A program made the position numbers and the translations under genes. A stretch of 23,109 nucleotides of DNA from a virus, in IMG/VR virus record IMGVR_UViG_3300024520_000513, positions 1 to 23,109 of that record. One strand, given 5' to 3'. Of this stretch, positions 401 through 10,871 are shown one piece after another. The notes below the pieces were generated by a model. It had not been told where the DNA came from. It saw only the letters and a program-made list of their open reading frames with translations, and did no database searches. How positions within the stretch are numbered: the first letter of the stretch is position 1; each line of letters opens with the position of its first letter.

Positions 401-441
401 GGGGCACTGAGCGCCCGCTCCATCCTCTAGCTCAGTGCCCC
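401..441. repeat. Perfect 12-bp inverted repeat (hairpin) upstream of the ATPase gene
   Basis: GGGGCACTGAGC at 401-412 is the exact reverse complement of GCTCAGTGCCCC at 430-441, leaving a 17-base loop. The stem is GC-rich and stable. No T-run follows, so it is not a standard intrinsic terminator. It sits in the 190-bp non-coding gap, about 55 bases before the start of the Sak4-like gene. It could be an mRNA-stabilising 5' structure, an RNase III site, a protein-binding dyad or part of an origin; the sequence does not decide between these. Confidence 0.7.
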
Positions 442-496
442 ACCTAGACTTCCACCGCACCGCAATGGGGCGTGCGCTGGACGAAAGGAGACAAGT

Positions 497-1363
497 ATGG
501 CGAAGACTCTTGCGGCAATTGAGCCCAAGAAAACCAAGGCAGCAAAGCCCAAGGTGCAAATCTATGGGCCTCCTGGTGTCGGTAAGACGTGGGCAAGTCT
601 GGATTTCCCAGATGTGTACTACATTGACACCGAGCGCGGCGCTGACCTTGAGCACTACACCGACAAGTTGGCGGCGAGTGGTGCCGGGTACATGGGGCCT
701 GATGAGGGATCCCAGAAGTTTGACATTGTACTTGAACAGGTGGAGCTACTGGCTACCACCAAGCATAAGTATAAGACGTTGGTAATTGACTCACTGACCA
801 AACTCTACAATGAGACAATGGCTGATGCCGCTGAAGACGGTGGCGATGCCTTTGGTCGTGACAAGAAGGAAGCCAACAAGCCGATGCGGAAGTTGATCCG
901 GTGGTTGTCCAAGATTGACATGAACGTGATCTTGATATGCCATGCCAAGGACAACTGGGAAGATGGCGAGAAGGTTGGGTTGCTGCCTGACTGCTGGGAC
1001 AAGATCAGCTATGAGATCCACCTTGTGTTGGAGATCAAGAAGATCGGTAACGCCCGCCATGCCATCATCAAGAAGTCACGGTTGAATGATTTCCTTGATG
1101 GCAAGACATTCCCATGGTCATATCAGGAGTTCAGCAAGAAGTACGGTGCTGATGTGATCGAGCGCACTGGTGATATCATTAAGTTGGCAACGCCAGCGCA
1201 AGTGTCAATGGCAATCAAGTTGAATCAGGCGATACGGCTTGAGGATGGCTTGGTGGAGAAGTGGTTCAGCAAGGCACAGGTGGATGACTGGTCAGAGATG
1301 GCCCATGAAGACATCGCCAAGTGCATCAAGTACATGGAAAAGAAACGGGAGGCAAGTAAATGA
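497..1363 (+). CDS. Sak4-like RecA-family ATPase (single-strand annealing/recombination)
   Basis: This is a P-loop ATPase of the phage Sak4/AAA_24 type. Walker A is GPPGVGKT at residues 24-31, followed by a strand YYIDTE. Walker B is TLVIDS around residue 98, and the sensor strand is VILICHAK around residue 149. At 288 residues it is longer than many Sak4 proteins because of an extra C-terminal helical region. Sak4 proteins are small Rad51/RecA-core paralogues that bind single-stranded DNA and promote annealing together with a phage SSB; the next gene fits that partner. The start is clear: an AAAGGAG Shine-Dalgarno lies 7 bases before the ATG. The stop overlaps the next ATG (AATGA), so translation is coupled. 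The family assignment is strong; the annealing role is inferred from family and neighbour. Confidence 0.85.
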   Translation: MAKTLAAIEPKKTKAAKPKVQIYGPPGVGKTWASLDFPDVYYIDTERGADLEHYTDKLAASGAGYMGPDEGSQKFDIVLEQVELLATTKHKYKTLVIDSLTKLYNETMADAAEDGGDAFGRDKKEANKPMRKLIRWLSKIDMNVILICHAKDNWEDGEKVGLLPDCWDKISYEIHLVLEIKKIGNARHAIIKKSRLNDFLDGKTFPWSYQEFSKKYGADVIERTGDIIKLATPAQVSMAIKLNQAIRLEDGLVEKWFSKAQVDDWSEMAHEDIAKCIKYMEKKREASK

Positions 1364-1812
1364 AGTTTGATACATCTGGTGGGACGGAAGCACCACCCAA
1401 GAAGGAGTTTCCGCTGTTGGATCCTGGCACGTACCAGTTTGTGGTGCTGACTGCTGTGGATGCAGTGTCTAGAGCTGGCAATAAGATGGTCACGATTGAG
1501 ATCCGGGCCTTCGACATGGAGGCCGACAAGGATGTCAAGATAAAGGACTACCTTGTTGGAACCGAGTCTGCGTCATGGAAGGTCAAACAGTTCCTTAAAG
1601 GGATTGGTGATCCAGAAGCTGCGGAGTCGGGTGAGCTTGATGCGGAGGCTATCATTAACCAAGGTGGCATGGTAGTTGTCGGGAAGAAAGAACCCAACGA
1701 CAAGGGCTATGTATACAACGAGGTGGTTGCATACGTTGACCCTGACGAAGAACCAGCCGAGGCCCCACGCAAGGCAATCGGTGAAGATCCTGACGAGGAC
1801 CCCTTTAGCTAG
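1360..1812 (+). CDS. SSB-like protein (DUF669-type), partner of the Sak4-like ATPase
   Basis: This 150-residue protein has a beta-rich body with the GTYQFVV and KMVTIEIRAFD strands typical of the phage DUF669 family, which is thought to adopt an OB-like fold. Its tail is acidic and ends in DPDEDPFS. An acidic tail with a terminal D-x-P-F is the hallmark of bacterial SSB proteins, where it docks replication and repair partners. Translation starts at an ATG overlapping the previous stop, so it is produced together with the Sak4-like ATPase; Sak4 genes are commonly paired with an SSB gene. I infer that it coats single-stranded phage DNA and loads the annealase. The alternative is a structural homologue without DNA binding. 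Family assignment is from memory of motifs only. Confidence 0.7.
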   Translation: MKFDTSGGTEAPPKKEFPLLDPGTYQFVVLTAVDAVSRAGNKMVTIEIRAFDMEADKDVKIKDYLVGTESASWKVKQFLKGIGDPEAAESGELDAEAIINQGGMVVVGKKEPNDKGYVYNEVVAYVDPDEEPAEAPRKAIGEDPDEDPFS

Positions 1813-1826
1813 GGGACAGGAACGCT

Positions 1827-1905
1827 GGGGTGTGTGGATTGGGGAAATGGTATGCCACATTAGGAACGATGGGATCCCCGTTCGATTCGGGGGTCCACAC
1901 ACCCC
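1827..1905 (+). ncRNA. tRNA-like structure or degenerate tRNA with extended acceptor stem
   Basis: The interval folds as a near-cloverleaf. The outer arms GGGGTGTGTGGA (1827-1838) and TCCACACACCCC (1894-1905) pair perfectly over 12 bp. Inside lies a canonical T-arm (CCCCG, loop TTCGATT, CGGGG at 1876-1892). The D-arm has loop AAATGGTA, carrying the usual A14, G18-G19 and A21 positions, and T8 is present. The acceptor strands are 1833-1839 and 1893-1899 with one G-T pair. What does not fit is the anticodon arm: only CATT/GATG with a 6-base loop AGGAAC (1858-1871), about three bases short of a real tRNA, plus one G-G mismatch in the D-stem and no encoded CCA. A functional tRNA is therefore unlikely. 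TTTACTTT follows, so it might also stop transcription. Confidence 0.5.
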
Positions 1906-1926
1906 TTTACTTTAAGGAGTAGTGAC

Positions 1927-2325
1927 ATGAAGAGGGGCATCGAAGACGTGGCTATCGCCAGGAGTAAGGCGCAGACCGGGTTTGGGTGGAGCAAGTTTGG
2001 GTTCAAGAAGGAACTTGTGAAGTTTGTTGAGGAACAGGATGCCGGGGGTGCGGAAACTATTGACACCATCAACAACCGCATGGTTGTGCCAGATGGGTGG
2101 TTTGTTGACAAGGAGGCTAACCGATTTTGCGTGCTCGAAATAGAGGACACGAACCCAATGTCGCGTGGCAAACTAACGCAGTACTCCGAGATATGGTTTG
2201 CGTTTGACTGCTCAGAAACAAGTTCTGACTTTGCCCTGTACGTTGGTGATCGGTATGGTGACACAAAGGAGGTGCCGCTAGTGGACATCTGGTATGCTTT
2301 TCTCGCGGAGAAGGCTGCTTCATGA
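1927..2325 (+). CDS. Hypothetical protein, possible PD-(D/E)XK nuclease-like fold
   Basis: The 132-residue protein has no family I can name with confidence. The central part has a pattern reminiscent of PD-(D/E)XK nucleases: P55-D56, then a hydrophobic strand leading into E71-I-E73-D74, then K82 and a helix KLTQYSEIW, followed by a strand FALYVGDRYG. The second acidic motif is E-x-E rather than E-x-K, so an active nuclease would need a displaced lysine such as K82. The start ATG has an AAGGAG Shine-Dalgarno 9 bases upstream, just after the tRNA-like structure. It is coupled by ATGA to the following membrane-protein gene. Coding status is sure; the nuclease idea is tentative. Confidence 0.6.
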   Translation: MKRGIEDVAIARSKAQTGFGWSKFGFKKELVKFVEEQDAGGAETIDTINNRMVVPDGWFVDKEANRFCVLEIEDTNPMSRGKLTQYSEIWFAFDCSETSSDFALYVGDRYGDTKEVPLVDIWYAFLAEKAAS

Positions 2326-2612
2326 TGCTTCTATCACTAATCCTCATAGCCGCAATCGACTCCAACTCACCCAAGCACCTTGCCGCTGGCATGGTTGGAG
2401 GGTACGTTACATACCAGTACACGGAGTCAGTGTGGCAGACAGTGGGGCTGAGTGTGGTAGCGGGGTTCGCACATGAGATGTACCAAGAGGCGAATGGCGG
2501 GGTGTATGACACTGATGACATTATGTTTGATGTGTTCGGTGCGTGGATAGGGGCACAGGGGGCCCACGCAAGGGTGCATCGTGGTGGTATTACTTTTACA
2601 TGGAGGTTTTAG
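2322..2612 (+). CDS. Small membrane protein, YfiM/DUF2279-like
   Basis: At 96 residues it opens with a hydrophobic stretch (MMLLSLILIAAI) that could be a signal peptide or membrane anchor. Then come KHLAAGMVGGYV and GLSVVAGFAHEMYQE, followed by YDTDDIMFDVFGAWIGA. The order KH...AAG..GG, a Gly-rich helix with H/K-E-x-Y, then a D-rich DxxxDxxG helix resembles the YfiM-like membrane or lipoprotein family often carried by phages, where the role is unknown. The ATG overlaps the upstream stop (ATGA). It precedes several other short membrane proteins on the same transcript. It might alter the host envelope during infection, but this is inference. Confidence 0.65.
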   Translation: MMLLSLILIAAIDSNSPKHLAAGMVGGYVTYQYTESVWQTVGLSVVAGFAHEMYQEANGGVYDTDDIMFDVFGAWIGAQGAHARVHRGGITFTWRF

Positions 2613-2614
2613 GG

Positions 2615-2902
2615 GTGGGTAGAATACGAGGATTCGGGTATTACGACCCGATAAGCATGGTCAACCCGGTGAGCACGACAACAGCAGCAAGCACTATTTT
2701 CATGTGCCGACCAGACAAGCGCAGGGCCCCGAGAATTGTATCTGCTGGTGAGCGCAAGGGGCACGCGCTGAAGAGTGAACGCACAGGGCGGCATGGTATC
2801 GGGTCAGGCAATCACAAACTGCCACGTATGATCAAGTGCGGGACATGGACAATGGATCAGTGGGTTGAGCAATGGGAGGCAAGGCGTGGCAAAGAAGCAT
2901 GA
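2615..2902 (+). CDS. Hypothetical small basic protein
   Basis: I do not recognise this protein. I chose GTG at 2615 because a GGAGG Shine-Dalgarno (2602-2606) lies 8 bases upstream. Longer forms starting inside the previous gene lack such a signal. The product of about 95 residues is rich in Arg, Lys and Gly, with a basic middle (PDKRRAPRIVSAGERKGHA) and a C-terminal amphipathic helix containing WTMDQWVEQWEARR. The basic character suggests nucleic-acid contact, but there is no recognisable motif. It overlaps the next gene by about 17 bases. Codon pattern and packing support it as a real gene. Confidence 0.5.
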   Translation: MGRIRGFGYYDPISMVNPVSTTTAASTIFMCRPDKRRAPRIVSAGERKGHALKSERTGRHGIGSGNHKLPRMIKCGTWTMDQWVEQWEARRGKEA

Positions 2903-3122
2903 ACGAGCACTGGAAGACATCCTGCTCATGTGGGACGAGTACTCTGATGCAGTACGCAACAAGCTGATCAAGAGCTACGCCGAGTATGGGGATGGCACGA
3001 TTAAGATGCCCATTGGTCGGCTGTCAAATGAACTCCAAGAGGAAGCAATTGACATGGCGGGCTGGGGCGTGTTCTTGTGGAACCGGGTCAGGCAGATCGA
3101 GGAGAAGCTGGATGAACGATGA
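2886..3122 (+). CDS. Hypothetical all-helical protein
   Basis: GTG at 2886 is preferred over an upstream TTG at 2865 because GGGAGG lies 6 bases before it. The roughly 78-residue product is predicted all-helical and charged: ALEDILLMWDEYSDAVRNK, then NELQEEAIDMAGWGVFLW and a C-terminal charged helix RVRQIEEKLDER. The E-L-x-E-E-x-x-D-x-A segment recalls a helix of MazG-like or DUF5664-like nucleotide pyrophosphohydrolases. The protein is too short to hold a complete metal site of that family, so I do not assign the function. It overlaps the previous gene and the following small membrane-protein gene. Confidence 0.6.
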   Translation: MAKKHERALEDILLMWDEYSDAVRNKLIKSYAEYGDGTIKMPIGRLSNELQEEAIDMAGWGVFLWNRVRQIEEKLDER

Positions 3123-3237
3123 CCCCCCAGTAGACATCCTCCACCTGGCAGCCAACATCATCCTGTGCATAGCCGCAGTGGGGTTCTGGGTTGGCATGGT
3201 GTACTTGGCGTGGTGGATTAAATCATTGACATCTTAG
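3112..3237 (+). CDS. Single-pass small membrane protein (41 residues)
   Basis: A short frame beginning at ATG 3112, preceded by GAGGAG within the end of the upstream gene and overlapping its stop by 11 bases. After an acidic head (MNDDPPVD) there is one long hydrophobic helix, roughly ILHLAANIILCIAAVGFW through MVYLAWW, and a short basic tail WIKSLTS. This is a single transmembrane protein, possibly N-outside by its charge distribution. Its function is unknown. A second, longer hydrophobic reading frame overlaps its last codons in the -1 frame, so the two may be expressed together or by frameshifting. Confidence 0.5.
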   Translation: MNDDPPVDILHLAANIILCIAAVGFWVGMVYLAWWIKSLTS

Positions 3238-3461
3238 CAGCCCTTCTGGTCACACTTGGCCAAGTCCCGCTGGGGGGACGTGATCGGAGGGGTTTTTTAA
3301 TTATTGCATTGGGGTGTGCGCTATGGATAATCCATGGCTGGCAGACCAAGACATGGGGGTTACTCATTGAGTGCCCAGTTAGTATCATCCTCTTGATAAG
3401 GAACTACAGGCTATGGGGTATCCCCGCAAGCTCAACATCTGTGGCAAAATCTACCACGTAA
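3225..3461 (+). CDS. Putative two-helix membrane protein without a standard start codon
   Basis: The frame is open from 3222 to a TAA at 3459-3461 and encodes what looks like a genuine membrane protein. An amphipathic start (IDILAALLVTLGQVPLGGR) is followed by a helix LIIALGCALWIIHGW and a second helix WGLLIECPVSIILLI ending in RNYRLWGIP. The hydrophobic helices flanked by R, H, K and W resemble small PnuC-like phage membrane proteins. No ATG, GTG or TTG lies before the first helix (the first TTG, 3309, is inside it). Possible explanations are a rare ATT/ATC start at 3222-3225, a CTG at 3246, a -1 frameshift from the overlapping 41-residue gene, or a sequence error. It overlaps the following metallopeptidase gene by 49 bases. 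Coordinates assume ATT 3225. Confidence 0.4.
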   Translation: MDILAALLVTLGQVPLGGRDRRGFLIIALGCALWIIHGWQTKTWGLLIECPVSIILLIRNYRLWGIPASSTSVAKSTT

Positions 3462-3745
3462 CATACGTCAAGCGCCACATTGATGTGGATCCTGATGGGG
3501 AAGAGTTGTTATGGGGACAGGTAGATTACCGGCGCAGAAGGATTAGGGTATACGATGGCAAGGAATACACCAGCAACCCTGACAAGTTTGACACCTTGAT
3601 ACATGAGATGATTCATGCTATCCTTCGTGAGCACTCAATGCTGATGTCCATCGTTGGCGAGATGGAAGAACCATTCGTGAATGATGTTGCATCTGCAATA
3701 ACTGATTGTCTAATCAGGAACAAGTTGATCGAGGAGTGGGGATGA
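3413..3745 (+). CDS. Small zinc metallopeptidase-like protein (HExxH)
   Basis: The 110-residue protein has the zinc motif H64-E65-M-I-H68 in the context FDTLIHEMIHAIL, with downstream acidic residues E85/E86 in a helix (EMEEPFVNDVAS) that could give the third metal ligand. The N-terminal half is beta-rich (HVTYVKR, RRIRVYDGK), the usual layout of SprT-like or minimal zincin proteins in phages. The catalytic motif is visible; the substrate is unknown. Known relatives act on proteins, sometimes on repressors or DNA-protein crosslinks, but nothing here selects one. The start ATG has AAGGA about 10 bases upstream. The stop overlaps the ATG of the phosphoesterase (ATGA), so the two are coupled. 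Confidence 0.7.
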   Translation: MGYPRKLNICGKIYHVTYVKRHIDVDPDGEELLWGQVDYRRRRIRVYDGKEYTSNPDKFDTLIHEMIHAILREHSMLMSIVGEMEEPFVNDVASAITDCLIRNKLIEEWG

Positions 3746-4479
3746 AGTTCAAAAGATTCATTGTATGCGCTGACTTACACGGTGACATGCAGGACAAGAA
3801 GGCCGTATCTGCGTTCCTTCGATTCAATAAGACATGGGACGCACAGATACGTGTGTTCGGTGGTGACCTGTTCGACTTCAGGGCTATCCGCAAGGGTGCC
3901 AGCAAGGAGGAGCAGAGCGAGTCAATGGACCGTGACCTGGATGCCGGTGAGAAGTTCCTTGGTGACTTCAAGCCGACACACTTCCTGCGTGGCAATCATG
4001 ATGAGCGCCTGTGGGATCTCGCAAGGGATGGCAAGGGGTTATTTGGTGACCATGCGAAGGCTGGCGTCCGTGAGATTGAGGACATCGTTAAGGATCTCGG
4101 ATGCAAGATGTACCCATACAATAAGCGCACGGGTATCGTAAGGATTGGACACCTACAGATCATACACGGGTTTGCCACTGGGGTGGGGGCAGCACGTAAG
4201 CACGCACATGCATTTGGGTCATGCCTATTCGGGCACACCCATTCGATTGATGAACACGCAGCGGAGGGAATTGAACGGAGAGTGGCAAGGAACATTGGGT
4301 GTCTATGCCGCTTGGATATGGATTACAACAGGCATCACATCGCAGCATTGAGACATGCCCATGGGTGGGCATACGGTGTGGTGAATGAAAGGACCGGCCT
4401 GTATCATGTGTTGCAGGCGGAGAGGGTAGCGGGTAAGTTTGTGCTCCCGATTATTACTGACTTTGTTGAGATGAAATAG
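3742..4479 (+). CDS. Calcineurin-like metallophosphoesterase
   Basis: All the signature motifs of the metallophosphoesterase superfamily are present in order: D11-x-H13 in ADLHGD, GGDLFD (GDxxD), GNHDE (GNHD/E), an IHG histidine and GHTH near the C-terminal side. These residues bind two metal ions. The protein has 245 residues, normal for a single-domain member. The family includes phosphodiesterases, nucleases and protein phosphatases. Phage members are often DNA-related, such as SbcD-like enzymes, but the substrate cannot be told from the sequence. I start it at ATG 3742, which overlaps the upstream stop and follows GAGGAG, rather than at an earlier in-frame codon inside the previous gene. 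No partner SbcC-like gene is adjacent. Confidence 0.85.
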   Translation: MKFKRFIVCADLHGDMQDKKAVSAFLRFNKTWDAQIRVFGGDLFDFRAIRKGASKEEQSESMDRDLDAGEKFLGDFKPTHFLRGNHDERLWDLARDGKGLFGDHAKAGVREIEDIVKDLGCKMYPYNKRTGIVRIGHLQIIHGFATGVGAARKHAHAFGSCLFGHTHSIDEHAAEGIERRVARNIGCLCRLDMDYNRHHIAALRHAHGWAYGVVNERTGLYHVLQAERVAGKFVLPIITDFVEMK

Positions 4480-4487
4480 GAGCGGTT

Positions 4488-4733
4488 ATGGCTAATAGAG
4501 AATGGTCAGTTGCGATGAGTAGTCACCTGAGTGCGGCGGTAGAGGCTGCCCCGAAGGCAAAGGGGTGGATGCCGATCACTGAGATTGCAGATGAGGTAGG
4601 CATGACCGTTGCTGGTATGCGATACCGCATGAACAAGATGATTGCTATCGGTGCAGCAGAGGGTAAGCTGTTCCGTGTTGGCAACAAGTCGTTGCGTCAC
4701 TACAGGCTGACAGCGAAGGGCAGGGGCAAGTAA
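4488..4733 (+). CDS. Winged-helix DNA-binding protein
   Basis: This 81-residue protein has a helix-turn-helix pattern: WMPITEIADEVGMTVAGMRYRMNKM, whose helices correspond to a positioning helix (TEIADEV) and a recognition helix (VAGMRYRMNKMI). It is followed by a short wing, KLFRVGNKSLRHYRLTAKG. The layout fits a MarR/ArsR-like or replication-type winged helix. It probably binds DNA as a transcriptional regulator of phage genes. The start has AGGAG 6 bases upstream. It is the only clear stand-alone DNA-binding regulator in the left half, so it may act at the promoter region near 5.65 kb, but no operator can be tied to it. Confidence 0.65.
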   Translation: MANREWSVAMSSHLSAAVEAAPKAKGWMPITEIADEVGMTVAGMRYRMNKMIAIGAAEGKLFRVGNKSLRHYRLTAKGRGK

Positions 4734-6738: not shown

Positions 6739-6949
6739 GTACGGCGGGCGCGAGAGCACCATTGAGAAACTAGAGAAGATCATTGATGAGGTGGTAGAGC
6801 AACGCGAGGCTGCTTGGGCCGATGCGGAGAAGGGGCGCGTGCTGGTGAGGGGTTGGGAAGCTGCTGTAGGGGATGAGTCTGCATCGTTTCGTTTTGGACG
6901 AGCGTTAATTGCGTGGGCCGAGGAGGGGGATGATGGGCAACAGGGCTAA
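6731..6949 (+). CDS. Hypothetical small helical protein
   Basis: This 72-residue product is charged and mostly helical (TIEKLEKIIDEVVEQREAAWADAEKGR), ending with FGRALIAWAEEGDDGQQG. The ATG has AAAGGAG 7 bases upstream, inside the end of the initiator gene, and overlaps it by 8 bases. Its own end overlaps the radical-SAM-like gene, supplying the AGGAGG that serves that gene. I recognise no family. A role as a small accessory to replication is possible from position only. Confidence 0.55.
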   Translation: MGKYGGRESTIEKLEKIIDEVVEQREAAWADAEKGRVLVRGWEAAVGDESASFRFGRALIAWAEEGDDGQQG

Positions 6950-7925
6950 CGTTGTCACTGTTGGATCTAAAAGCGAAAGCTTGGGGGCTAACAAGTTGGC
7001 GACATGGCTAAGGGCAACCGGGTGGGACGTTACTGAATCAATCGAAGTGTCTCCGATGTTCCACGACTTTGACCTAACCTGCTTCTCGGTCGTGTTTTCG
7101 TGGAAGCTACCGGCGCTGGTGAAGATGGTCAATTCCATTAAGGACAAGAGCGAGGTCTGGATTGGTGGCCCTGCCGTGAGCTTCAGCAATAAGAACTATC
7201 GGTATGTGGAGGACTCTACTGGTATCGCACCCACCACCGGGATCGACCAACGCTTTGAAAAGGCAGAGCATGATTCATGCATGAATTACTTTTCGCGTGG
7301 GTGCCCGGCATATACCCCGGCTTGCGGGTTTTGCCCCGTGCCCAAGATAGAGGGCAGCACATTTACCTTTTACCCAGATGCGCGACCCACCAAGATGCTG
7401 CTGGACAATAACCTATCTGCGCTGCCTGCTGAATATCAAGATCATATAATAAATGCCTATCGTGATTTCAGTGGCAAGGTAGACGCCAACAGCGGTTTTG
7501 AACCGCACTCATTCAACGAAGAAATACTAAGCAGGTGGTCAACCTTCCCGCTTATGTACTGGCGCTTCGGGTATGATGACCTGACCGAGAGAGAGCAGGC
7601 GCTTACAATGTTAGACCTTTTGATGTCCAAGGGGGTTGCGGGGAGGCGCATCCAGGTATATACGCTGATAGGGAACGAGTCGGTTGCAGACAGCATAAGC
7701 AGGTGTCGGGAAGTCATTAGCTTGGGCGCTGAACCTAGGCCACAAAGGTTGAGGCCGCTTGATTGGCTAGGTGGCGATCTGCCATGCCGCCATGACTGGA
7801 CAGAGCCGAATCTGATCGCAACACAAAGGTACTTTGCACTACCACAGATATGGAGGACGGTGGAGATGCGTGACTTTTATTACCAGAAGAGGTATCCGTT
7901 TCGGGATATGGGGGTGGCGGCTTGA
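6933..7925 (+). CDS. Radical-SAM-like enzyme with B12-binding-type N-terminal domain
   Basis: With the start at ATG 6933, placed 6 bases after AGGAGG, the protein has 330 residues. The N-terminal third is a Rossmann-like domain (ANVVTVGSKSESLGANKLA, VWIGGPAVSF) as found before radical SAM cores of the B12-binding class. Then comes SRGCPAYTPACGFCPVPKIE, which matches the RGC..C.FC.VP..EG cluster loop of radical SAM enzymes. However, the spacing is C124-x6-C131-x2-C134 instead of the usual CX3CX2C. Further TIM-barrel-like strands follow (VDANSGFE, YWRFGYDDL, IQVYTLIGNES). Radical SAM enzymes use a 4Fe-4S cluster and S-adenosylmethionine. Its place between initiator and helicase suggests a DNA or nucleotide substrate, which is inference. 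The substrate is unknown. Confidence 0.65.
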   Translation: MGNRANVVTVGSKSESLGANKLATWLRATGWDVTESIEVSPMFHDFDLTCFSVVFSWKLPALVKMVNSIKDKSEVWIGGPAVSFSNKNYRYVEDSTGIAPTTGIDQRFEKAEHDSCMNYFSRGCPAYTPACGFCPVPKIEGSTFTFYPDARPTKMLLDNNLSALPAEYQDHIINAYRDFSGKVDANSGFEPHSFNEEILSRWSTFPLMYWRFGYDDLTEREQALTMLDLLMSKGVAGRRIQVYTLIGNESVADSISRCREVISLGAEPRPQRLRPLDWLGGDLPCRHDWTEPNLIATQRYFALPQIWRTVEMRDFYYQKRYPFRDMGVAA

Positions 7926-9196
7926 ACAATCTCCCCGCTGAACGATCACTCCTCTACCTCTGCATAGACTCCGACATATCATGTGGGGAAATCTGCGCAG
8001 TAGTGGAGACATCCGACTTCACTGACCCTGACCATGCTGAGTTGTACAGCATCGTGCTTGAGTTACATGGTGCAGAAACCAAGGTGGAAATGAGCACCTT
8101 ATTAGCCGCTGGTGCCTCCACATCCACGGTGGGTGACGTATTGGAGCATGGGATGGCCGATGCAAGGTCGTGTAAAGCCCACTTAAGGGCCCTCACAGCC
8201 TCTACACGGGCACGAAAGCTCTCAAGGGTATGCAGGGAGGCCCTAGACAATTTGGAGGCCACCTCGGGCCGTATAGAGCCCCTTCTTGATTCCTTCCAAT
8301 CGCTCATAGATGACCACCACAAGTCCAGCATTGACGATCAGACGGTCAGCATGGCACAAGGTGCAGAGGAAACCATGGAGTGGCTGGTGTCTGGAGGGGC
8401 TTCCAAACAGTTGAAGACTGGGTATATAGAGGTTGACAAGTTGGTACGCTTCCGGCCAGGTGGGCTACACATCATCGCAGCCAGGCCCAGCGTAGGGAAA
8501 ACATGCCTTGCCCTTAACCTCACACGCAAGTGGGCCACTGCTGGGACACCCGTACTATTCGTATCATTGGAGATGGCATACCAAGACCTCGTCACCTCAC
8601 TGATTGCAGCAGAGGCCAACATACCAATCGATGCCCTGATGTACGGTGACCCTGACGGGACTCAGTGGGTCAAGGCTGCAATGGCAAAGGACAGGGTATC
8701 CGGACTGCCCATCACCATCACATACAACCGCAACCTGTACGGTGTCATCACCCTTGCCAAGCAGATGGCCCGGCAGAACAAGGACTTGGTCGTGGTCGTT
8801 GACTACCTCCAGCTATTAGAAGGTGCCCGCGTTGGCAAGAACTCCAACCGAGAGCAAGAGATATCCCAGTTCAGCCAGAAACTTAAAGGCATGGCTCTGG
8901 ATGAAGGGATCACAGTGGTTGCCCTGTCGCAGCTTAACCGTAGCGCAGAGCACCGCACCAATAAGAAGCCTGTGTTGTCTGATCTACGCGAGTCTGGTGC
9001 CATCGAGCAGGACGCTGATGTGGTGCTTCTCATGTACCGGGCAGACTACTACTCAGACACAGCGCGGGCTGATTCACAGACGGAGATAATTTGTGCTAAA
9101 CAACGCGGAGGGCAGACTGGGAAAGTGGATATGATGTTCAGGAAGGACAAGGGCAGGTTTGAGAATTTAGCTTATGGAGGAGGAAGAGATGTATGA
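7922..9196 (+). CDS. dnaB: DnaB-type replicative DNA helicase
   Basis: This is a RecA-fold hexameric helicase that unwinds the fork. The reduced N-terminal domain (about residues 1-135) resembles DnaB-N but is divergent. The C-terminal motor has Walker A ARPSVGKT (187-194), SLEM (215-218), Walker B VVVVDYLQLL, the motif ALSQLNR, and DLRESGAIEQDADVVLLMYR, then CAKQRGGQTG with the Lys/Arg of the arginine-finger region. At 424 residues it is slightly shorter than the usual 450-470. The start is a TTG overlapping the stop of the previous gene, with a G-rich Shine-Dalgarno. It works with the initiator at 5824. No primase domain is seen, so priming would be by the host or another locus. Confidence 0.93.
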   Translation: MNNLPAERSLLYLCIDSDISCGEICAVVETSDFTDPDHAELYSIVLELHGAETKVEMSTLLAAGASTSTVGDVLEHGMADARSCKAHLRALTASTRARKLSRVCREALDNLEATSGRIEPLLDSFQSLIDDHHKSSIDDQTVSMAQGAEETMEWLVSGGASKQLKTGYIEVDKLVRFRPGGLHIIAARPSVGKTCLALNLTRKWATAGTPVLFVSLEMAYQDLVTSLIAAEANIPIDALMYGDPDGTQWVKAAMAKDRVSGLPITITYNRNLYGVITLAKQMARQNKDLVVVVDYLQLLEGARVGKNSNREQEISQFSQKLKGMALDEGITVVALSQLNRSAEHRTNKKPVLSDLRESGAIEQDADVVLLMYRADYYSDTARADSQTEIICAKQRGGQTGKVDMMFRKDKGRFENLAYGGGRDV

Positions 9197-9392
9197 TTTA
9201 AAAGGGCTGGATGATTTTGAGTTTATCGAGAAAGTCTTTACTGACCTGAAGTCGGCTAAGTCAAGGGGTGAACTGTGCATGGTTGATAACAATGACCTTG
9301 ACCGACTGGTCAAGACTGCATTGGCTGGCTTGGCGTGGAAGGAGACTGCGGTGGGCCTGATGAGCGAGGAGGCCCCAGATGACCAACATTGA
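9189..9392 (+). CDS. Hypothetical small acidic protein
   Basis: The 67-residue product starts at ATG 9189, directly after a strong GGAGGAGGAAG in the end of the helicase gene. An earlier in-frame ATG at 9174 would lie before that ribosome-binding sequence. The protein is acidic and helical (DLKGLDDFEFIEKVFTDLK, DLDRLVKTALAGLAW). No family is recognised. It overlaps both neighbours and is clearly part of the operon. Confidence 0.55.
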   Translation: MYDLKGLDDFEFIEKVFTDLKSAKSRGELCMVDNNDLDRLVKTALAGLAWKETAVGLMSEEAPDDQH

Positions 9393-10691: not shown

Positions 10692-10871
10692 CTTCTGCTT
10701 CTGCTCAAGGCGGTCCAGACGCACAGCGTCACCCTTCTCTGGCTGACCGGGAGGGCCATTGCGGTAGACATCAAACTTCTGGAACATCACCGTGTGGTCT
10801 TCCTGTGTATCAGATACCCTGTCAAGGGCACGCATAACAGTGTGTAGGGTAGGCTCTGATTCAGGTGGCAT
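10617..10871 (-). CDS. Holin-like small membrane protein (XhlA-like layout)
   Basis: The 84-residue protein has a polar N-terminal half with a charged helix, then DRLEQKQKLVWGALVAGVV, a single C-terminal membrane helix continuing to LFKGFWSM. This order (coiled-coil helix, then one membrane span) is that of XhlA/hemolysin-like phage proteins and some class III-like holins. Phage holins permeabilise the inner membrane at lysis. The call rests on topology, not on a diagnostic motif. It is the last gene of the minus-strand virion block, overlaps the preceding lipoprotein gene by 11 bases, and meets the plus-strand genes tail to tail with 75 bases of overlap. Confidence 0.5.
   Translation of the reverse strand: MPPESEPTLHTVMRALDRVSDTQEDHTVMFQKFDVYRNGPPGQPEKGDAVRLDRLEQKQKLVWGALVAGVVALFKGFWSMISGH

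Follow-up and report, generated by a model that had tools for sequence, protein, structure and literature searches.

A tRNA-shaped, non-decoding element before a start codon in a viral replication gene cluster, and a recurrent mini tRNA-elbow structure in other phages

Introduction

In plant mitochondria, tRNA-like structures at mRNA ends, known as t-elements, guide the endonucleolytic cleavage of polycistronic RNA, a process related to tRNA punctuation (PMC8003010). Several phage RNAs have likewise been described as substrates of host RNase P, including phi80 M3 RNA, P1/P7 C4 RNA and T4 gene 32 mRNA (PMC11143913). A T-stem-loop/acceptor shape of the right length is sufficient for a substrate of this enzyme, the D-loop being apparently dispensable (PMC4919913).

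Here, we analyzed a tRNA-like fold in the IMG/VR virus record IMGVR_UViG_3300024520_000513. The whole stretch of DNA that was analyzed (positions 1 to 23,109 of the record) is referred to as the window, and all positions of the element count along it.

Results and discussion

Genomic setting and anatomy of the element

The record (23.1 kb) carries a replication gene cluster on the + strand, which includes genes for a Sak4-like ATPase, an SSB-like DUF669 protein, a DnaD-like loader, DnaB and a RuvC-like protein (Pfam and PHROG). The - strand contains long, mostly unclassified genes, one of which matches tail-protein families. A Radical SAM/B12-binding-like protein (window 6909-7925) also sits in the phage replication gene cluster.

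Two co-directional genes are separated here by 114 nt, and the tRNA-like fold, read directly from the sequence, occupies this gap. It lies 14 nt past the stop codon of the first gene (TAG, 1810-1812) and 21 nt before the ATG of the second, and is therefore placed in sense just before a start codon (Table 1). The Shine-Dalgarno (SD) sequence of the downstream gene begins 8 nt after the outer stem. The upstream product, which has an acidic DEDPF C-terminal tail, matches PHROG 378 (single strand DNA binding protein). The element is present as a single copy in its record.

Table 1 Features of the tRNA-like element and its flanking genes in the window
Feature	Position	Strand	Basis
Upstream gene, SSB-like (DUF669)	1360..1812	+	Pfam DUF669 E 2.7e-6; PHROG 378 E 7.7e-9
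tRNA-like element, whole	1827..1905	+	Direct reading, RNA fold, lowered-threshold ARAGORN
Outer (extended acceptor) stem, 5' strand	1827..1839	+	Predicted pair probabilities 0.57-1.0 (RNA fold)
D-arm-like GGGA/AAUGGUA/UGCC, G18G19 at 1849-1850	1842..1856	+	Direct reading, lowered-threshold ARAGORN; absent from MFE structure
Shortened anticodon arm CAUU/AGGAAC/GAUG	1858..1871	+	Direct reading, RNA fold, lowered-threshold ARAGORN
T-arm CCCCG-TTCGATT-CGGGG	1876..1892	+	Direct reading, RNA fold, acceptor/T-arm scan
Outer stem, 3' strand	1893..1905	+	Direct reading, RNA fold
Shine-Dalgarno AAGGAG of downstream gene	1914..1919	+	Direct reading; 7 nt before ATG 1927
Downstream gene, 132 aa	1927..2325	+	No family in Pfam or PHROG

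The outer stem pairs GGGGUGUGUGGAU with GUCCACACACCCC over 13 positions without a bulge, 12 of them Watson-Crick and the innermost a U-G pair (U1839-G1893). The T-arm is perfect (strands 1876-1880 and 1888-1892, loop 1881-1887), and its stem-loop is stacked on the acceptor stem as in substrates of RNase P and RNase Z, giving an acceptor/T stack of 18 bp in which the leader is paired with the trailer. In our own numbering, the tRNA-equivalent bases are U8 (1840), A14 (1846), A15 (1847), G18G19, A21 (1852) and U48 (1875), and the elbow contacts U8-A14, A15-U48, G18-U55, G19-C56 and U54-A58 are possible. Three of the four D-stem pairs (1842-1845/1853-1856) can form, the remaining one being a G-G mismatch. 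In the anticodon arm (1858-1861 with 1868-1871), 4 bp close a loop of 6 nt (1862-1867); since a 7-nt anticodon loop and U33 are absent, the element cannot decode in the normal way. The predicted RNA fold has an MFE of -37.6 kcal/mol (z = -2.48 versus dinucleotide shuffles).

An earlier model-made annotation of this stretch (hereafter the sequence-only reading) had described a canonical T-arm, a D-loop GG, T8, a 4-bp anticodon arm with a 6-base loop and a location between the SSB-like gene and the next co-directional gene, all of which could be read directly at 1827-1905. Its outer stem of 12-13 bp is indeed contiguous, although 13 bp is reached only when the U-G pair is counted, and the T-rich tail it mentioned, UUUACUUU, is a poor U-run. 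This tail bears on the terminator role that the same reading had raised, in which the 13-bp GC-rich stem and the following U residues would halt RNA polymerase before the downstream gene. A strong stem with some U downstream is in line with such a terminator or attenuator. However, the U-run is interrupted, the stem encloses a structured 53-nt loop that does not resemble that of an intrinsic terminator, the downstream SD follows the stem by only 8 nt, and terminator-like matches in the region are at chance level (7, including one at 1889-1906, versus 7.2 expected). No positive evidence for termination was thus obtained from this search, and we regard the role as quite improbable.

A 9-bp direct repeat (ACCCCTTTA) at 1799-1807 and 1901-1909 brackets the element, with a 102-nt unit between its copies that, counted in codons, preserves the frame from the SSB gene to the next gene. 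Insertion with target duplication was considered for these repeats and is not favored, because, on our reading of the frames, the SSB frame would run on into the next gene once the unit was removed, and because the DEDPFS tail resembles the natural end of an SSB protein.

Comparison with chance folds and with tRNAs

The structure of the element is not due to chance. A comparable fold was defined by a T-arm with a perfect stem of 5 bp and a TTCRANH loop (where H is A, C or T), together with an abutting stem of 7 or more pairs; only one was present in the 4.6 Mb obtained by shuffling the dinucleotides of the window 200 times. Shuffling of phage contigs (4.0 Mb) produced no match that combined a perfect 7-pair acceptor with a perfect T-arm.

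At default settings, ARAGORN called neither a tRNA nor a tmRNA at the element. Lowering its threshold gave about 160 low-score calls across the window, one of which, labeled 'tRNA-?', spans 1832-1903 and shows the cloverleaf described above. Rfam gave no match to the window up to E = 1, and no tRNA (RF00005) match to the interval alone (141 bases) up to E = 10; the mir-6790 match in the interval, far below its gathering score, and a lncRNA match were discarded as irrelevant. The T-arm and the elbow bases are those of a decoding tRNA, and the lowered-threshold cloverleaf would agree with a functional but unusual one. On the other hand, such a tRNA has a 7-bp acceptor with unpaired flanks and a 5-bp anticodon stem with a 7-nt U33 loop, in place of which the element has 13 contiguous outer pairs and a short arm without U33 or an identifiable anticodon. 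Together with the missing Rfam match, this makes decoding extremely unlikely.

We also compared the element with 1,055 phage tRNAs. Its best alignment score was 27.2, below the lowest score of 60 control tRNAs (29.6), so the element is not a fresh copy of a common tRNA, in agreement with the sequence-only reading, which had argued against a freshly decayed tRNA. Among 1,043 canonical tRNAs drawn from the fetched phage contigs, flanking sequence extended the acceptor by 0-1 pair in 988, by 2 pairs in 50 and by at least 3 pairs in 5. A paired leader and trailer therefore seem to be avoided in canonical phage tRNAs, as expected if pairing blocks processing. Two otherwise canonical tRNAs have strongly paired flanks: a tRNA-Pro (L299 rc 10753-10828) with 16 additional acceptor pairs and a tRNA-Asn (L177 168-243) with 12.

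These comparisons also bear on the view that the element is a relic, that is, an old tRNA gene of a phage, without a present role, whose anticodon arm has lost nucleotides and whose extra outer pairs are accidental. Every elbow position is like that of a tRNA, AAUGGUA is a common D loop among tRNAs, and tRNAs and atypical tRNA-like folds occur in many phages, as a relic would lead one to expect. A decaying gene should lose pairing first, yet all 13 outer pairs are intact, five of them perfect pairs added outside an 8-bp acceptor, an extension of a size (at least 3 pairs) seen in only the 5 canonical tRNAs mentioned above, and there is no close resemblance to any sampled tRNA. A relic is therefore somewhat unlikely.

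Search for relatives

Viral contigs were searched with single proteins (those of the flanking genes, and DnaB) and genome contigs with the SSB, and nothing near was found; blastn and tblastn searches against phages likewise gave nothing near. By these sequence searches, the virus is an orphan in the viral, genome and phage collections. Its best-connected gene, which encodes a 1,073-aa protein, reaches 80 distant phage contigs, in which the SSB and 132-aa genes are absent. A scan of those 80 contigs for a perfect acceptor and T-arm revealed normal tRNAs and a few non-canonical structures, among them those of L064, L070 and L033, which are closely followed by an RBS or a start codon. The L192 and L064 regions had no homologs in the phages collection. 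The 3' half of the element had no exact match, and the best blastn match of the element in phages (E 0.7) lay within an HNH endonuclease gene, with tRNA-Trp matches at E 8. In L141, AGGAGG and ATG are directly preceded by a tRNA-like structure (2634-2714) whose acceptor has 10 bp and whose long anticodon stem closes a 6-nt loop.

A recurrent mini structure in other phages

A recurrent structure of about 40 nt was found in other phages, consisting of a 5-8-bp acceptor, a linker that has no D stem and carries GG (the counterpart of D-loop G18G19), a T-arm and the closing acceptor strand. At least 30 such mini folds, some of them less regular than the consensus, were known from 3.4 Mb of real sequence before the dedicated search, and none from 3.4 Mb of shuffled sequence. 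Three pattern searches led to the structure (for a T-arm with an RBS and ATG after it, for a T-arm alone, and for ATGGT close to a T-arm), and at least 97 distinct mini elements were identified. It should be noted that the comparison sets come from patterns that fix parts of the T-arm, and that the counts given here are among the matches listed. The acceptor stem was not required by the pattern, and 65 of the 126 viral-contig matches listed still fold as mini elements, compared with 9 of the 124 bacterial and archaeal matches listed (GTDB), indicating that the mini structure is enriched in viruses.

The placement of the mini elements is clearly biased. Among the 97 listed, an ATG-initiated ORF starts within 45 nt downstream in sense in 60 cases and in antisense in 14 (P = 9e-12), and in 61 the stop of a co-directional ORF lies no more than 120 nt upstream, in most cases no more than 15 nt. 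Because the RBS-selected set is biased for placement, other subsets are quoted here: 31 of the 45 mini elements listed for contigs that the third search yielded lie between co-directional genes, compared with 11 of 104 canonical tRNAs (P = 2e-12), and in the T-arm-alone set the corresponding values among the matches listed are 3 of 6 and 21 of 223. Both P-values are descriptive, since the criteria for mini elements were set while viewing the data.

Several contigs contain multiple copies: seven matches in G001 (L348), five in G003 (L388) and in G007, four in G002 (L360) and in G009, and three in Gordonia phage Trine. The acceptor and T stems vary between these copies yet remain paired. Among 30 aligned mini elements, 138 cells were changed on both sides of a pair, compared with 38 in shuffles, a count that is partly circular because selection required pairing. 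Multi-copy locations are L388 (rc 2349-4651), L348 (75-2625), L360 (rc 406-3016), L379 (rc 7630-9212), L319 (2537-2930), L343 and L361. In our reading, another small hairpin lies between several of the mini elements and the SD.

In phage Trine (NC_047991, L438), the three copies are on the - strand at 31979-32019, 32088-32128 and 32209-32249, about 115 nt apart. They fall within gp40, annotated as a hypothetical gene, for which the start given in the annotation probably lies too far upstream. The same scan found no mini element in the related phages Mahdia and Widow. Mini elements also occur in the bacterial genome contigs L446, L458, L496, L512, L516, L537 and L553, which include Streptomyces, Nonomuraea, Brachybacterium and Thermocatellispora and are possibly prophages.

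No Rfam family matched the mini elements in the ten contigs scanned, ARAGORN called none of them on the multi-copy contigs, and no description was found in the literature searched, which included few subscription papers. The mini set is a widespread, uncatalogued group that occupies the same intergenic position in many unrelated phages.

Relation of the element to the mini set

The element and the mini set (R1) share the T-arm (TTCGANT in the mini elements), the GG, the acceptor core and the position before a start codon between co-directional genes. In contrast with the element, the mini elements have neither a D stem nor an anticodon arm, their acceptor is 5-8 bp rather than 13 bp, and they often occur in several copies. 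No match between the element and the covariance model of the mini elements (R1) could be observed. Considering this result and the differences in copy number and stem length, we did not assign the element to the mini set, and kinship between them is inferred from the shared features. We further examined mid-length non-decoding folds in sets that had not been chosen for an RBS. Among the matches listed, the fractions lying between genes were 1/9, 1/10 and 1/2, compared with about 10% of canonical tRNAs, showing no clear placement bias; placement alone thus does not prove function for this group. Nevertheless, the element likely works in part like the mini elements, as a cis-acting, tRNA-shaped mRNA element.

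Proposed function

We estimate a probability of about 50% that the element is a cis-acting processing or end-protection element of a polycistronic early mRNA, tRNA-shaped and non-decoding. Its transcription within such an mRNA is suggested by its position, since the neighboring genes are co-directional and, apart from the gap that it fills, tightly packed. The transcript would fold into a tRNA shape that, judging from the anticodon arm, does not decode, and the T-arm/acceptor stack and elbow would present a tRNA-like surface in cis beside the downstream RBS. The most likely role would be to set or protect an mRNA end. Host tRNA-processing enzymes or another endonuclease may cut at or near the stem, after which the downstream message would begin, or the upstream message end, with a very stable structure; alternatively, the structure may simply block exonucleases.

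RNase P and RNase Z measure an acceptor/T stack of about 12 bp from the T-loop to the cleavage site, next to an unpaired leader. The anatomy of the mini elements fits recognition by these enzymes and could serve as 'punctuation' of polycistronic mRNA. The 18 stacked pairs of the element depart from this ruler and would be better suited to protection of an mRNA end or to a different enzyme. Hence, the RNase P/Z signal suggested by the sequence-only reading appears appropriate for the mini elements and less so for the element itself, whose clamp-like extended stem probably represents a longer, single-copy form that protects an end or is cut in another way, and not an ordinary RNase P/Z substrate. 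Either action of the element on mRNA, cleavage or protection, is an inference from its structure and position.

The broader idea of a tRNA mimic is supported insofar as the structure is non-random and a tRNA-like intergenic set exists in phages; the decoy and terminator roles attached to it are not supported. As a decoy or sponge, the element would act in trans as a free tRNA-like RNA on RNase P, the CCA-adding enzyme, tRNA modification enzymes or a tRNA-targeting defense protein. The elbow and T-arm are indeed surfaces read by the CCA-adding enzyme, tRNA modification enzymes and tRNA-targeting defense proteins. They are also read by RNase P (PMC4919913). However, the element directly precedes an SD and has no sign of its own promoter, its paired flanks make a tRNA-like release unlikely, and anticodon nucleases would meet no anticodon. 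Positive evidence for a decoy was not found, and we consider this role unlikely.

Our results suggest that phages borrow the tRNA shape to process or protect their mRNAs. A more general and tentative possibility, which we rate below the cis-acting role itself, is that tRNA-elbow elements punctuate the mRNAs of many phages as sites that host tRNA-processing enzymes cleave or bind, the element being an elaborated member with a clamp stem. If so, the 40-nt mini elements between a stop and the next start would segment and stabilize phage mRNAs, and such elements would escape current annotation (ARAGORN and Rfam). The mini elements are testable RNAs with covariation support, and the three copies in the isolated Gordonia phage Trine make the idea accessible to experiments in a laboratory host.

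Comparison with known systems

The element shares with tRNA (RF00005) the T-arm, U8, A14, R15, G18G19, A21, Y48 and acceptor/T stacking, and differs from it in the 13-bp outer stem, the 4-bp anticodon stem and the 6-nt loop without U33. Like the tRNA-like domain of tmRNA, it has neither a complete D stem nor a normal anticodon arm, whereas the mRNA-like domain and tag reading frame of tmRNA are absent. Beside the known phage substrates of RNase P, its extended stem is atypical; C4 of P1/P7 is an antisense RNA, unlike the element, and none of the phi80 M3, C4 and T4 gene 32 substrates is described as a multi-copy intergenic element (PMC11143913). The t-elements of plant mitochondria are organellar and experimentally shown, whereas the phage element is known from its sequence. 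If the punctuation reading is true, the exploitation of the tRNA processing machinery for mRNA segmentation or protection would be a bacterial-virus counterpart of mitochondrial tRNA punctuation.
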